Part shown: one piece after another, positions 43,725 through 48,509 of the stretch | Layout: every line of letters begins with the position of its first letter | How positions within the stretch are numbered: position 1 is the stretch's first letter | Source of the DNA: Mycobacteriales bacterium | GTDB lineage: Bacteria; Actinomycetota; Actinomycetes; Mycobacteriales; CADCTP01 | Assembly (NCBI GenBank): GCA_035995165.1 | Contig: DASYKU010000059.1 | Coordinates: forward strand, 1 to 64,000 | Direction: 5' to 3' | DNA length: 64,000 nucleotides | The notes under the pieces: generated by a model | Told to the model about the DNA's origin: nothing | Seen by the model: the letters and a program-made list of their open reading frames with translations, nothing else | Database searches by the model: none | Program-made: the position numbers and the translations under genes

Positions 43725-44438
43725 TCAGGACCCGGATGAGCCGTACCGCTCCAGCTTGATCCGGCTCCGGTCGTAGCCCTGCTGCGCCAGCAGGGTCGCG
43801 GCGGCCTCGACGAAGCCGGTGGAGCCGCAGACGTACGCGGGGCCGTCGTCGAAGGCGACCGCCGCGACGTCGTCCGCGGTGATCCGGCCGGCCGGTCTCG
43901 TCGCGGCCGGCGGCGTCCGTCGCGTGTAGACGACCGTGGTCTCGGGGCCGAGCTCGGTGGCGAAGATCAGCTCCTCCGGCGCCCGCACCGAGAACAGCAG
44001 CCGGACCGGGACGTCCGGGTGCGACAGCCGGCGCGAGCGCAGCATCGCCATCACCGGCGCCACCCCGGACCCGCCGGCCACCAGCAGCAGCGGGCTCTCG
44101 CCGCGCCAGACGAAGTAGCCGCCGACCGGCCCGCGCACCTCGACCTCGTCGCCCGCGACCACGTCCTCGGTCAGGTACGGCGAGACCTCGCCCGCGGGCA
44201 GCCGGTCCACGGTCAGCTCGACCACGCCCGCGTCCTCCGGCGGCGAGGCCACCGAGTACGACCGGCTGGCGCTGTAACCGTCCTCGGCGGTGAGCCGGAC
44301 GATGTAGTGCTGTCCGGGCAGGTGCGCGCGCCGGTCCGGCACCCGCAGCCGCAACGTGGCCACGTGCGCGTTCTCCGGCCGCACCGACTCCACCGTCGCG
44401 AACGTCCACGGCCCCGGCGTCGGCGCCGGCTCAGTCAC
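43725..44438 (-). CDS. Ferredoxin-reductase-type FAD/NAD(P)H oxidoreductase
   Basis: A 237-residue FNR-fold protein with FAD-binding SRSYSVASPPE, nucleotide-binding VAGGSGVAPVMAML and the C-terminal YVCGSTGFVEAA. It lacks a ferredoxin domain. The start overlaps the sulfite-oxidase-like stop by 8 bases. The two form a widely conserved actinobacterial pair in which this protein probably delivers or accepts electrons for the molybdoenzyme. Confidence 0.9.
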   Translation of the reverse strand: MTEPAPTPGPWTFATVESVRPENAHVATLRLRVPDRRAHLPGQHYIVRLTAEDGYSASRSYSVASPPEDAGVVELTVDRLPAGEVSPYLTEDVVAGDEVEVRGPVGGYFVWRGESPLLLVAGGSGVAPVMAMLRSRRLSHPDVPVRLLFSVRAPEELIFATELGPETTVVYTRRTPPAATRPAGRITADDVAAVAFDDGPAYVCGSTGFVEAAATLLAQQGYDRSRIKLERYGSSGS

Positions 44439-45039
44439 CCTGGTAGCGCTGCTCGCGCCAGGGGTCGCCGCGGTCGTGGTAGCCGCGGACCTCCCAGAAA
44501 CCGGGCTCGTCGTGGTCGAGCAGCGTGATCGTCTCGATCCACTTCGCGCTCTTCCAGAAGTACAGGTGCGGCACGATCATCCGCACCGGCCCGCCGTGCT
44601 CGACCGGCAGCGGCCGGCCCTCGTGCTCCCAGACGATCCAGGCCTTGCCGCCGGTGATGTCCGCCAGCGGCAGGTTGGTCGTGTAGCCGGTGCTGCTCGT
44701 CGCCACCGCGAACGTCGCCTCCGGCGTCGGCCGGGCCTCGGCCAGCAGCGTGTCGACCGAGATGCCGGCGAAGGACGTGTCCAGTTTGGACCACGTGGTG
44801 ACGCAGTGGATGTCGCCGCTGAAGCGGTCCGGCGCCAGCTGCTGGACCTCTTTCCAGGTCCACGTCATGGGCTTCTCGACGCGCCCGTTGACGGTGATCG
44901 ACCACGAGTCGAGGTCGAGGCGCGGAGTCAGCTCCGCGGTGAGGACGGGCCACCCCGAGCCCACGTCGTACTGACCCGGGGGAAGACGGCCGGGCTCGCC
45001 GCCGCGGCGACGACCGGTGAAACCACGCGAAGCTCGCAC
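44431..45039 (-). CDS. Sulfite-oxidase-like molybdopterin oxidoreductase
   Basis: A 202-residue enzyme of the sulfite oxidase/YedY fold. The molybdenum-ligating residue is Cys79 in GDIHCVTTWSKLD. GGPVRMIVPHLYFWKSAKW contributes to cofactor binding. No Tat or Sec signal is present, so it is cytoplasmic, unlike YedY/MsrP. GTG at 45039 is chosen by homology to the region before PGQYDVG; no good ribosome-binding site is seen, so the start is uncertain. The substrate is unknown. Confidence 0.88.
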   Translation of the reverse strand: MRASRGFTGRRRGGEPGRLPPGQYDVGSGWPVLTAELTPRLDLDSWSITVNGRVEKPMTWTWKEVQQLAPDRFSGDIHCVTTWSKLDTSFAGISVDTLLAEARPTPEATFAVATSSTGYTTNLPLADITGGKAWIVWEHEGRPLPVEHGGPVRMIVPHLYFWKSAKWIETITLLDHDEPGFWEVRGYHDRGDPWREQRYQGD

Positions 45040-45049
45040 GGGAAGGAAT

Positions 45050-45694
45050 CTACTCGGCCCGCAGCCGGACGGACCGGCGTACGCCGATGGCGAGCGCCAC
45101 ACCGCCGGCCGGCGCGACGACCACCCCGGTGACCAGCAGCCCCAGCGCGAGCCGGCGCAGGAAACCGGCCCGCAACGCCAGCGCGGCGGTCACCTCCAGG
45201 CCGGCGGACCCGTCGGCGTTCATCACCACCAGCCGCTGGCCGCCCGTACGCACCGGTACGTCGATCGTCTGCTGTCCGCTGCCGGTCGCGCTGACCGTCC
45301 ACACCCGCTGACCGGCCGGCCGGGCCGGGCCGCCGGCGCCCTCGTGCGGGACCAGCGTCGCCCGCAGCGGGGACAGCCGGACCGCGGTCAGCTCGTCGTA
45401 CCCGACGCCGGACAGGTAGCGGTCGACCGCCGCGGCCGGCCCGACGCCGAGGAAGACCGGGCCGCCGTCGGTGGACTCGACCCGGACCCGCACGGTCGCG
45501 TCGAGGCCACCGGTGCCCAGGCCCGCGGCGTCGGAGACCAACGCGTACCGCTGGGTGGACAGCGTGCCGGCGCTGCCGCCGAAGGCGCCGTCGCGGCCGG
45601 TCAGCAGGAGCAGCACGACACCGGTGACGCCGAGCGCGAGACCGATCAGCGCACAGACCGCGCCGAGCGCCACCAGCAGCACTCTTCCGGTCAC
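45050..45694 (-). CDS. Membrane protein of unknown function
   Basis: A 214-residue protein with one N-terminal membrane helix (VLLVALGAVCALIGLALGV), an extracytoplasmic beta-rich domain of about 140 residues and a second helix near the C-terminus (LALGLLVTGVVVAPAGGVAL), ending in a basic tail. I do not recognise a family with confidence. It lies 10 bases upstream of the sulfite-oxidase-like gene in the same direction, suggesting an operon of three. Confidence 0.7.
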   Translation of the reverse strand: MTGRVLLVALGAVCALIGLALGVTGVVLLLLTGRDGAFGGSAGTLSTQRYALVSDAAGLGTGGLDATVRVRVESTDGGPVFLGVGPAAAVDRYLSGVGYDELTAVRLSPLRATLVPHEGAGGPARPAGQRVWTVSATGSGQQTIDVPVRTGGQRLVVMNADGSAGLEVTAALALRAGFLRRLALGLLVTGVVVAPAGGVALAIGVRRSVRLRAE

Positions 45695-45797: not shown

Positions 45798-45826
45798 TTG
45801 TGGCCCCTCGGGGGCACGCCTAGGGT
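45798..45826 (+). promoter_or_regulatory. Probable promoter of the Asp-repeat / JmjC locus
   Basis: TTGTGG (45798-45803) and TAGGGT (45821-45826) are spaced by 17 bases. The predicted start near 45833 gives a 45-base leader ending in GAGGAGG before the ATG at 45878. No other promoter is needed for the two genes behind it. Confidence 0.55.
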
Positions 45827-45877
45827 CGGCGCGGGCCTGGTCGGCCCGTACCCCGACTCGACGAGGAGGCTGCGCTG

Positions 45878-46279
45878 ATGGCGCTGGACGATGACGACAT
45901 GGTGACGTCCGGACCGGGGAGCGAGGGTCCGGCTGACGGTGGCGCCGACGGCGTCGCGGGCGTGCACGACGGTGGTGCCGACGGTGGCGCGGACGGCGGT
46001 GCCGATTCCGGTGCCGACTCCGGTGCCGGCGGCCCGGCCGACTCGGGCGCGGCCGACGGTGTGGCCGGGACGCACGATGGTGGCGCGGACGGCGGCGCCG
46101 AGGGTCCGGCCGACTCGGGCGCGGGCGGCGGCGCGTCGGGCGTGTCCGACGGTGGTGCCGACGGCGGCGCCGACTCCGGTGCCGAGGGTCCGGCCGACTC
46201 CGGTGCCGGTGACTCCGGCGCGGCCGGTGTCCACGACGGCGGCGCCGATGGCGGAGCGGACGGCGGGGCACAGCGCTGA
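45878..46279 (+). CDS. Asp/Gly/Ala repeat protein, possible substrate of the adjacent oxygenase
   Basis: A 133-residue protein built from four-residue units of the type D-G-G-A or D-S-G-A, so that Asp recurs every fourth position. After a short N-terminus (MALDDDDMVTSGPGSEGPAD), higher-order units begin at residues 28, 64, 88 and 117 with G-[VT]-[HS]-DGGADGGA. It contains no Lys, Cys, Tyr, Phe or Trp, only one Arg (last residue) and three His. A strong GAGGAGG precedes the ATG. It is followed 20 bases later by the JmjC/cupin gene. The regular Asp spacing suggests a modified repeat peptide. Whether it is cleaved or secreted is unknown; there is no signal peptide. Confidence 0.82.
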   Translation: MALDDDDMVTSGPGSEGPADGGADGVAGVHDGGADGGADGGADSGADSGAGGPADSGAADGVAGTHDGGADGGAEGPADSGAGGGASGVSDGGADGGADSGAEGPADSGAGDSGAAGVHDGGADGGADGGAQR

Positions 46280-46299
46280 GCACGGAATCCGGCGTCGCG

Positions 46300-47526
46300 G
46301 TGCCGGGCGGTCCCACTCCGGACCGCCCGGCCCTGCGCCGCTGCATCGGCATCTCCCCGGCCGAGTTCGCGGCCTCGCACTGGGCGGCCAAGCCCCTGCT
46401 GACGCCCGCCGCCGGGAACTTCGCGGACCTCTTCAGCCTGGCCGCGGTGGACGAGCTGGTCTCCACCCGCGGGCTGCGTACGCCGTTCCTGCGGGTGGCC
46501 AACCAGGGCAAGGTCGTCGAGCCGGCCCGGTTCACCCGCGGTGGCGGCGCCGGCGCCGAGGTCTCCGACCAGCTCGCCGACGACCGGCTGACCGAGCTGT
46601 TCGCCGACGGCTCCACCCTGGTGCTGCAGGGACTGCACCGGACCTGGCCGCCGCTGGTCGACTTCGGCGGCCGGCTCGCCGCCGAGCTCGGGCACCCGGT
46701 CCAGATCAACGCGTACGTGACACCCCCGCAGAACAAGGGGTTCTCGGCGCACTTCGACGTCCATGACGTGTTCGTGCTGCAGGTCGCCGGCGAGAAGCGG
46801 TGGACCATCCACGCGCCGGTGCACGAGGCGCCGCTGCGGGACCAGGAATGGAACCGCTACCGCACCGCGGTGGCGGCGCGGGCGGCCGAGGAACCGGCCA
46901 TCGACACCATGCTGCGCCCGGGTGACGCGCTCTACCTGCCGCGGGGCTGGCTGCACTCGGCCGAGGCGCTCGGCGACGTGTCCGTACACCTGACGATCGG
47001 CATCCACTCCGTCACCCGGTACGCGTTGGTGGAGGCGTTGACCGCGCTGGCGGCGGAGGAACCGGAGCTGCGGACCTCGCTGCCGCTCGGCGTCGACGTG
47101 GCCGACCCGGACCAGCTCGGGCCCGATCTGGCCGCGACCGTCGAGGCGCTGACCGGCTGGCTCGGCAAGGCCGACCCGGCTCAGGTCGCCGACCGCGTGC
47201 GGCGTCGCGTGTGGACACAGACCCGGCCGGAGCCGGTCGGCCCGCTGGCCCAGGCGGCCGCGGCCCGCTCGGTCACCGACGGCACGACCGTCCGGGTGCG
47301 CGGGGGACTGCGGCACCGGCTGCGGCCGGTCGACGGCGGCACCGTGGTGCTGGAGCTGCCGGACCGGACGCTCTCGCTGCCGGCCGCGACCGCGGACGCG
47401 CTGCGGGCGTTGCTGTCCGGACAGGTTCTGGCCGCGGGTGAGCTGCCCGGTCTGGACGCGGCCGACGGGCGGACGCTGACCGCCCGGCTGCTGCGCGAGT
47501 CGATCGTGGTGCCGTCGGCCGAATGA
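46300..47526 (+). CDS. JmjC-type cupin oxygenase (ROX-like)
   Basis: A 408-residue Fe(II)/2-oxoglutarate-dependent oxygenase related to ribosomal-oxygenase (YcfD/MINA) proteins. The JmjC domain (about 95-230) has the iron ligands His151 and Asp153 in SAHFDVHDVF and His219 in LPRGWLHSAEA, with NAYVTPPQNKGF before and VAGEKRWTIH after. A C-terminal winged-helix-like part (about 255-405) probably mediates dimerisation or substrate binding. Known relatives hydroxylate protein side chains. GTG at 46300 has only a weak ribosome-binding site. It lies between the repeat protein and the [2Fe-2S] protein, with a 4-base overlap to the latter. Confidence 0.9.
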   Translation: MPGGPTPDRPALRRCIGISPAEFAASHWAAKPLLTPAAGNFADLFSLAAVDELVSTRGLRTPFLRVANQGKVVEPARFTRGGGAGAEVSDQLADDRLTELFADGSTLVLQGLHRTWPPLVDFGGRLAAELGHPVQINAYVTPPQNKGFSAHFDVHDVFVLQVAGEKRWTIHAPVHEAPLRDQEWNRYRTAVAARAAEEPAIDTMLRPGDALYLPRGWLHSAEALGDVSVHLTIGIHSVTRYALVEALTALAAEEPELRTSLPLGVDVADPDQLGPDLAATVEALTGWLGKADPAQVADRVRRRVWTQTRPEPVGPLAQAAAARSVTDGTTVRVRGGLRHRLRPVDGGTVVLELPDRTLSLPAATADALRALLSGQVLAAGELPGLDAADGRTLTARLLRESIVVPSAE

Positions 47527-48509
47527 GCGAGCCGCCCGCTCCCGGAGTCCCCGTGGATGCGGGACCTCCGGCGGCGGTCTCGGCGGTGTTCCGGCTGGGC
47601 CAGGCGCTGGAGCGGCTCGGGAGCGGGCCGGGCGGGATCTCCGAGCGGTGTGCCCCCTCGGCCGAGCGGCGGGGTGACCTCCGGCTCGGCTCGGCCTCGC
47701 CGACGGCGCGCTGGCTGCTGGTCGAGCAGCCCGGCGGCTGGGGGTCCGACGCGCTGCTGGAGTCCACTCTGGACCGTACTGTCGGGGCGGAGCTCCTGCG
47801 CCGCTGGGAGGACGGGGCCGGCATCCGGGTGCTGCTGATCCGCCGGCCCGGCCGCCGACCGGCCCCGGCCCGCCGCGCCTGGGCCGTGGTCGACTCCCGG
47901 GCCGGCCGGGAACGGGTCGGCTGGGGCAGCTGGGAACGCCCCGACGAGCTGCTGGACCTCCCGGTCGGCGCCGACGCGGGCGAGCCCGGCGGCCCGCTCT
48001 ACCTGGTCTGCGCGCACGGCCGGCACGACGCCTGCTGCGCGATCCGCGGTCGCCCGGTGGCGCAGTCGCTGGAGGCGGCCCGGCCGGGCGCGGTCTGGGA
48101 GTGCTCGCACATCGGCGGCGACCGGTTCGCCGCGAACGTCGTCGCCCTGCCGCACGGGCTGTTCTACGGGCACGTCACCCCGGCCACGGCGCCGGCGGTG
48201 GCGACCGCGTACGAGCAGGGCGAGGTCCGTACCGACCTGCTCCGCGGCCGGTCCGCGTTCGCGCCGCCGGCCCAGGCGGCCCAGCACCACGCCCGGCTCG
48301 CGCTGGGGGAGACCCGGGTGGACGCGCTGCGCCCGCTCGGCATGGCCGCGCTGGCCGACCGGACCTGGCGCGTCCGCCTGGCCGCGCCCGGCGGCGCCCT
48401 GCTGGTGACGGTCCGGGCCGCGCTCGGCGCGCCGGTCCGGCTCACCTGCTCCTCGATACGGGCCGAGCGCCCGCGCACCTGGGAGCTGCTCCGCCTCGAA
48501 CGGGCCTGA
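47523..48509 (+). CDS. Sucrase/ferredoxin-like thioredoxin-fold [2Fe-2S] protein
   Basis: A 328-residue Suc_Fer-like protein. The thioredoxin-like ferredoxin core has LVCAHGRHDACCAIRGRPVA and VWECSHIGGDRFAANVVALP, supplying the Cys/His residues expected for an iron-sulfur cluster. The N-terminal half (about 1-150) is a variable related domain. ATG at 47523 overlaps the oxygenase stop (ATGA). Co-translation with a 2-oxoglutarate oxygenase suggests a reductase or electron-supply role, which is inferred. Confidence 0.88.
   Translation: MSEPPAPGVPVDAGPPAAVSAVFRLGQALERLGSGPGGISERCAPSAERRGDLRLGSASPTARWLLVEQPGGWGSDALLESTLDRTVGAELLRRWEDGAGIRVLLIRRPGRRPAPARRAWAVVDSRAGRERVGWGSWERPDELLDLPVGADAGEPGGPLYLVCAHGRHDACCAIRGRPVAQSLEAARPGAVWECSHIGGDRFAANVVALPHGLFYGHVTPATAPAVATAYEQGEVRTDLLRGRSAFAPPAQAAQHHARLALGETRVDALRPLGMAALADRTWRVRLAAPGGALLVTVRAALGAPVRLTCSSIRAERPRTWELLRLERA

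Follow-up and report, generated by a model that had tools for sequence, protein, structure and literature searches.

The 64,000-nucleotide stretch analysed here (the window; positions 1 to 64,000 of contig DASYKU010000059.1 from the Mycobacteriales bacterium assembly GCA_035995165.1; Actinomycetes, Actinomycetota) carries three adjacent genes encoding an Asp-repeat protein, an oxygenase of the JmjC_2 family and a Suc_Fer-like protein with a predicted [2Fe-2S] cluster. Pairing of the JmjC gene with an upstream Asp-repeat open reading frame (ORF) is near-universal among close homologues of the enzyme. We propose, with moderate confidence, that the locus is a module like those of ribosomally synthesized and post-translationally modified peptides (RiPPs), in which a leader-guided JmjC oxygenase of the ribosomal oxygenase (ROX) type would hydroxylate C3 of many repeat Asp residues, with the Suc_Fer protein as an accessory. 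The three genes are as follows.

45878..46279, plus strand: Asp-repeat precursor protein, 133 aa (ATG-started ORF; 71 of 72 close homologues have an orthologous repeat ORF immediately ahead of JmjC)
46300..47526, plus strand: JmjC_2/ROX-type Fe(II)/2-oxoglutarate oxygenase, 408 aa (GTG start; Pfam, profile and AlphaFold2 (AF2) fold match)
47523..48509, plus strand: Suc_Fer-like thioredoxin-fold [2Fe-2S] protein, 328 aa (ATG start; Pfam, AF2 fold, conserved Cys/His)

Pairing of JmjC and Asp-repeat genes

JmjC homologues were taken from GTDB species contigs, from 396 genomes sampled evenly across the phylum and from 395 genomes of the class, and the DNA around 157 of them was read. By their score against the JmjC profile they were grouped as close (at least 345 bits), intermediate (180–345 bits) or distant (below 180 bits). 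An ORF was called Asp-rich when Asp made up 20% of its last 45 residues, a threshold set after examples had been seen and applied unchanged to the control, and was counted as paired when it ended within about 350 nt upstream of the JmjC gene. An Asp-rich repeat ORF lay directly upstream in 71 of the 72 close loci, 67 with repeats of the DGGA type and four with other Asp-rich repeats. The one locus without it (L183) carries a different sort of acidic ORF, which also occurs at one of the four non-DGGA loci (L062), where it narrowly exceeds the Asp threshold. Pairing was also found at 43 of 48 intermediate loci; among the five exceptions, L090 and L095 are contig ends and at L097 the repeat is poorer in Asp. 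The background was far lower: at random positions drawn from the flanks of the fetched loci, the Asp threshold was reached in 56 of 11,071 cases (0.5%) and DGGA arrays in none.

The association was also seen in the reverse direction. At least three matches to a DNA pattern for DGGADGGA occurred in only four of the 396 phylum genomes (G000, G086, G108 and G215), and all of these clusters lay at the JmjC locus; two genomes with a pair of overlapping matches were outside this locus check. The genomes are not independent samples, although the labels switch repeatedly along the JmjC tree. Among the named carriers are Actinokineospora, three Kribbella, two Micromonospora and metagenome-assembled genomes of an Intrasporangiaceae member and a Mycolicibacterium, and the system was present in about 16% of the sampled class genomes (63 of 395). 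When ORFs within 7 kb were clustered over 62 loci, only the JmjC, Suc_Fer and repeat genes, with their antisense shadows, were conserved; any other ORF family was common to at most nine loci. The initial annotation had named absence of the repeat gene from most genomes with the JmjC/Suc_Fer pair as grounds for refuting its idea, and these counts show the opposite.

The repeats themselves vary. Those of the close group are DGGA, DGSA or DGTA, while other classes of the phylum have DADGTDGDATD, DADASDADA, DTDTTDSTDTD, DADADSTDADADST and similar strings, and DSDASD also occurs among the lineages. Asp was present in each of 118 tails compared (minimum 9%, median 20%, maximum 42%). Ala was found in all 118 and Gly in 117, with lowest values of 2% and 0%, and there were tails that lacked Ser (13), Thr (24), Glu (50), Asn (84), His (59), Lys (103) or Arg (87). 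Gly, Ala, Ser and Thr interchange between lineages, and Asp is the residue kept throughout; repeat number and spacing differ widely between precursors. At the N-terminus, nine aligned close-group precursors share the motif M-x-[LIF]-[ND]-D-D-D-[IM]-x-T-S, and divergent precursors have the related motif L-[ST]-[DE]-[DE]-[DE]-I-x-T-[VST]; in some close-group families (e.g. L064 and L171–L176) this region is shorter and less similar. A conserved leader-like N-terminus followed by a variable repeat in which Asp is kept is the pattern of an enzyme and its substrate, with Asp as the likely target. Features of a RiPP module are thus present, namely a small precursor gene beside a modifying enzyme, a conserved leader and a variable core. 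The earlier proposal that the repeat protein is a dedicated substrate of the JmjC enzyme, with Asp as the target, is strongly supported by this comparative genomics, that is, by the pairing, the retention of Asp and the membership of the enzyme in the ROX family.

Two further kinds of locus were observed. At L062 and L183, an acidic Asp/Glu ORF of the DDPELAGADLDEDQSEGRGPTIEPGA type replaces the repeat protein and no Suc_Fer gene is linked. At L157, L161, L164 and L189, which share one family code, the JmjC gene has an in-frame stop or a split frame and the repeat and Suc_Fer genes remain, reflecting either recent decay or sequencing error.

The three proteins and their operon

The repeat protein begins with MALDDDDMVTSGPGS and continues in four units, each with an [E/G]GPAD[G/S]GA start, a spacer and a closing run of DGGA/DSGA.

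45878..45913, plus strand: leader-like N-terminus MALDDDDMVTSG (alignment of nine precursors)
45923..46027, plus strand: repeat unit 1, EGPADGGADGVAGVH + DGGADGGADGGADSGADSGA (from the sequence, as are units 2 to 4)
46028..46099, plus strand: repeat unit 2, GGPADSGAADGVAGTH + DGGADGGA
46100..46183, plus strand: repeat unit 3, EGPADSGAGGGASGVS + DGGADGGADSGA
46184..46276, plus strand: repeat unit 4, EGPADSGAGDSGAAGVH + DGGADGGADGGAQR

The 133 residues, the four larger units and the absence of Lys and Cys described in the initial annotation were all found in the ORF at 45878–46279. Its description of Asp at every fourth position is true only within the DGGA runs, since these are interrupted by spacers. 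The protein contains 24 Asp residues, and its core has a single, C-terminal Arg. Asp pairs at a spacing of +4 numbered 10, against a mean of 4.1 after shuffling, and 26 of 20,000 shuffles reached 10. The 11 exact DGGA units are written in eight DNA spellings, with 0.53 differences per site at third codon positions, a value that was 0.44 when 62 DGGA loci were taken together. This divergence of third positions indicates that the repeat has been kept at the protein level and did not arise by recent slippage of DNA. Both a chance or low-complexity artefact and recent tandem slippage were rejected on the grounds of the random-position control, cross-genome conservation and saturation at third codon positions. 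The longer overlapping GTG-started ORFs (e.g. 45939–46766, plus strand) were also discarded, as it is the Asp frame that relatives retain. The protein had no Pfam match and no NCBIfam model near the cut-off; a known repeat family was rejected, since neither this protein nor the divergent precursors matched Pfam or NCBIfam above the cut-off.

The second protein matched JmjC_2 (PF08007) in Pfam (8.5e-27; 93.6 bits against a cut-off of 22), and NO66 was the top match in a profile search (1.4e-30). Its AF2 model (pLDDT 77.7) aligned with NO66 over 368 residues (Z 25.2), with a root-mean-square deviation (rmsd) of 9.2 that probably reflects domain placement. Further matches were MINA53 (Z 24.3), YxbC (19.5) and YcfD (19.5), with FIH weaker (13.2). 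All three iron ligands named in the initial annotation, His151, Asp153 and His219, are present in the sequence and conserved without exception across the family, and H151, D153, H219, K166, N137, Y139, H155, D156, H230, T232 and R65 are at least 90% conserved in all three groups.

46750..46758, plus strand: H151-x-D153 iron ligands (CAC TTC GAC), 100% conserved in all three family groups
46954..46956, plus strand: H219, third iron ligand (CAC), 100% conserved
47290..47523, plus strand: C-terminal beta/alpha winged-helix-like domain, candidate leader-binding domain (AF2 secondary structure; aligns with the end of NO66)

In the AF2 model, the C-terminal domain has strands at residues 330–361, followed by helices. 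A ROX-type winged helix as in NO66 accounts for this fold, and leader binding by the domain is a hypothesis.

The third protein matched PF06999 in Pfam (3e-20; 73.6 bits against a cut-off of 34.9), and its AF2 model aligned with the Aquifex thioredoxin-like ferredoxin 1m2a over 87 residues (Z 12.1, rmsd 2.1). The gene directly follows JmjC at 54 of 67 DGGA loci and at 40 of 51 loci with other Asp-rich repeats. The 94 linked copies from these two repeat groups show no variation at C43, C163, C171, C172, C309 or H196, and a [2Fe-2S] cluster is predicted from this conserved Cys/His set. The same Cys set occurs in unlinked paralogues, so the protein is an ordinary member of its family; the H196...D200 pair is kept in the JmjC-linked proteins, and some paralogues have a second His. 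Oxygenases that use 2-oxoglutarate need no electron-source protein. Four genomes (G205, G279, G280 and G398) carry the repeat/JmjC pair and lack any Suc_Fer homologue of this type genome-wide, which indicates that the protein is an accessory and not a required partner. The suggestion that it serves as the required electron source is therefore weak.

All three genes run on the plus strand, and the Suc_Fer ORF overlaps the JmjC ORF by 4 nt (ATGA at 47523), as originally annotated. The region had been given as starting at 45798, which is 80 nt too early, since the repeat ORF begins at 45878. The single promoter that had also been proposed is putative: a crude scan, carrying little weight in a high-GC genome, gave no sigma-70-like promoter or terminator at the operon. 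Because the flanking genes on both sides lie on the opposite strand, the three genes form an isolated unit. A defence system was rejected, PADLOC having returned no match. Upstream of the operon, at 43725–45102 on the minus strand, translations read by eye predict two genes encoded together, for a molybdopterin protein resembling sulfite oxidase and a protein resembling ferredoxin reductase.

The proposed modification and its alternatives

In the proposed mechanism, the JmjC enzyme, possibly by way of its C-terminal winged-helix domain, would recognise the leader conserved at the N-terminus of the Asp-repeat protein, and with Fe(II), 2-oxoglutarate and O2 would hydroxylate C3 (the beta carbon) of many repeat Asp residues, yielding a multi-site 3-hydroxyaspartyl protein. 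The Suc_Fer accessory could plausibly hold the iron of the oxygenase reduced or serve a later redox step. Metal binding would be a likely use of the product, because 3-hydroxy-Asp is a good ligand for hard metals. As to the reaction itself, ROX enzymes carry out C-3 hydroxylation and FIH, which has the JmjC fold, acts on Asp in AnkyrinR, which it hydroxylates (PMC4543633); these precedents make C-3 hydroxylation of Asp the chemically closest prediction.

Several observations weigh against this proposal. Clustering of the 62 loci revealed no conserved leader protease, exporter or regulator within 7 kb. The profile of the JmjC C-terminal domain gave no match by sequence to a RiPP recognition element (RRE), a result that does not exclude one. 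The characterised ROX enzymes target His or Arg and the RiPP enzyme BipG targets Orn; none of them acts on Asp. Not all RiPPs carry a leader protease or an exporter. The lack of a conserved protease or exporter may mean that the product is a protein that is modified but not processed as a classical RiPP would be. This product may remain inside the actinobacterial cell, or it may rely on general machinery.

It is conceivable, if unlikely, that the JmjC enzyme goes beyond hydroxylation on the Asp repeats, by cross-linking, macrocyclization, dehydration or decarboxylation, with the Suc_Fer protein acting in a second step. A 2-oxoglutarate-dependent RiPP macrocyclase is named in the title of a study (Xia 2025, doi 10.1021/jacs.5c07332) cited in PMC12710340, and the tight linkage of the Suc_Fer gene would fit such a step, but the repeat/JmjC pair occurs in several genomes that lack a Suc_Fer of this type, and the widely varying number and spacing of the repeats suit independent single-site modification more than a defined ring. 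A role of Asp in recognition or charge alone, with Ala, Gly, Ser or Thr between the Asp residues as the modified residue, would agree with the presence of Ala in every tail and of Gly in all but one. We consider it improbable, since Ala and Gly almost vanish from some tails and Ser and Thr are missing altogether from others, whereas Asp never falls below 9%, and since C3 hydroxylation is the known ROX reaction (PMC4543633).

Dense Asp arrays, the DxDxxD spacing of divergent precursors and the presence of two iron proteins in one operon might instead point to an unmodified binder of Fe or Ca that serves the oxygenase and the Fe-S protein. To this we assign a smaller probability again: a conserved leader-like N-terminus with variable repeats is the pattern of an enzyme and its substrate, and the short Asp peptides found with distant JmjC relatives are too small for metal storage. 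That the enzyme is a ribosomal oxygenase like YcfD or NO66, with the repeat protein as a regulator or bystander, is very improbable indeed. NO66, MINA53 and YcfD are its best structural matches, but the repeat ORF tracks the JmjC clade across two phyla and numerous families, and ribosomal genes are not linked to the locus, so that the genomic context points to a non-ribosomal substrate.

If multi-site hydroxylation of Asp by the JmjC enzyme is correct, it would assign a substrate to JmjC_2 oxygenases of many actinobacteria, take the ROX family beyond single ribosomal residues to a low-complexity protein modified at multiple sites, and define an Asp-directed RiPP-like class. Repeated 3-hydroxy-Asp would amount to a genetically programmable metal-binding polymer.

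Relatives of the system and known systems

Distant actinobacterial JmjC_2 genes (score below 180) were never accompanied by Suc_Fer and often lay behind short peptides with Asp tails of the SDGxD type, such as ...ITAGGDSDGTDSSSDFI, ...GRSDLND and ...SDSDGSDG. At L063, L066, L205, L208, L212, L215 and L216–L219, short Asp-tail peptides (GRSDGND, GRSDLND, DPDGSDG, SDSDGSDG) lie directly upstream of divergent JmjC_2 genes without Suc_Fer. At L198, L200–L203, L206, L207, L209–L211 and L213, peptides like MDPIEVEVEDLAEVTSRDITAGGDSDGTDSSSDFI are encoded between a gene with a prolyl-oligopeptidase-like C-terminus and a divergent JmjC_2 gene, and may be regarded as a putative second RiPP-like family. 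The window's genus also has, in G001 (L003), a JmjC_2 paralogue of 38% identity behind an ORF of 84–88 aa that ends in ISASTGCISNPSGPSC and resembles a RiPP precursor with Cys.

Outside the Actinomycetota, a JmjC match was found in 8 of 249 genomes drawn from the phylum of a Sphingomonas record (G757). Three of these, at pseudomonadotal loci, have Asp-repeat ORFs upstream of JmjC_2, with TDSDPxD...GRG units and an RRSF signal peptide resembling those of the twin-arginine translocation (Tat) pathway; no Suc_Fer of this type was seen in the stretch read.

L229, 5277–5898, reverse-strand orientation: Asp-repeat ORF upstream of JmjC_2
L230, 5093–5960, reverse-strand orientation: Asp-repeat ORF upstream of JmjC_2
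L231, 4394–5879, reverse-strand orientation: two Asp-repeat ORFs in a row upstream of JmjC_2

The Tat-like signal suggests that any modification of these repeats would take place in the cytoplasm before export. A plasmid collection yielded only distant JmjC relatives, annotated 'cupin domain-containing protein'. We put forward more tentatively, as possible but somewhat less than probable, a broader picture in which genetically encoded poly-(3-hydroxyaspartyl) repeat proteins form a widespread, undescribed class in many Actinomycetota, their Asp arrays being converted by the JmjC enzyme and the thioredoxin-fold ferredoxin into multidentate hydroxy-Asp polymers, probably metal binders, with a Tat-exported counterpart in some Pseudomonadota and the short SDGxD peptides as a small-molecule branch of the enzyme family.

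A literature search for the repeat strings, for Suc_Fer with RiPP and for the whole combination found no paper, most subscription journals being outside its coverage, and no report of Asp-repeat substrates was found in the literature searched. The initial annotation's statement that no system of this composition has been described thus holds within that literature, but RiPP-like loci with JmjC enzymes have been described before (PMC12707348, PMC12257519, PMC12710340). The parts belong to known families, and an oxygenase-modified ribosomal product is already known as a kind.

The enzyme shares with the ROX JmjC_2 proteins NO66, MINA53 and YcfD the PF08007 domain, the HxD...H triad and the fold, including its C-terminal part. 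Their targets are His or Arg of ribosomal proteins, whereas here a dedicated Asp-repeat ORF is adjacent and R65, R114 and H155 are conserved in the window's JmjC clade. FIH, acting on ankyrin repeats, and ASPH, acting on EGF-like repeats, are likewise 2-oxoglutarate enzymes that place C3-hydroxyls on Asp or Asn of repeat proteins (PMC4543633), but they are eukaryotic, have many folded or secreted substrates in place of one adjacent low-complexity substrate, and are not close relatives of the window's enzyme. The Suc_Fer-like protein resembles other thioredoxin-like [2Fe-2S] ferredoxins in its PF06999 domain, its fold and the Cys set of its unlinked paralogues, and differs in being translationally coupled to JmjC.

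A 2025 study describes PF08007 proteins with RRE-like folds, whose bacterial homologues occur in RiPP-like contexts (PMC12710340). The family, the C-terminal beta/alpha domain and the RiPP-like neighbourhood are the same here, but the text searched of that study names neither Asp-repeat precursors nor a Suc_Fer partner, and the domain is RRE-like there, while that of the window's enzyme has no RRE match by sequence. BipG, BpmG and PbsQ, the JmjC/cupin hydroxylases of biphenomycin-type RiPPs, hydroxylate one Orn (PMC12707348, PMC12257519). They too are JmjC/cupin Fe/2-oxoglutarate enzymes with a ribosomal precursor in the operon, hydroxylation being a prediction in the present case. They modify a single Orn among many maturases, whereas here no primary enzyme other than JmjC is conserved, and Arg and Lys are almost missing from the Asp array that forms the core; the Arg/Orn target of BipG-type enzymes is lacking from most of the 118 cores. 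Set against these systems, the Asp-repeat protein and its oxygenase have a reasonable chance of defining a new class.

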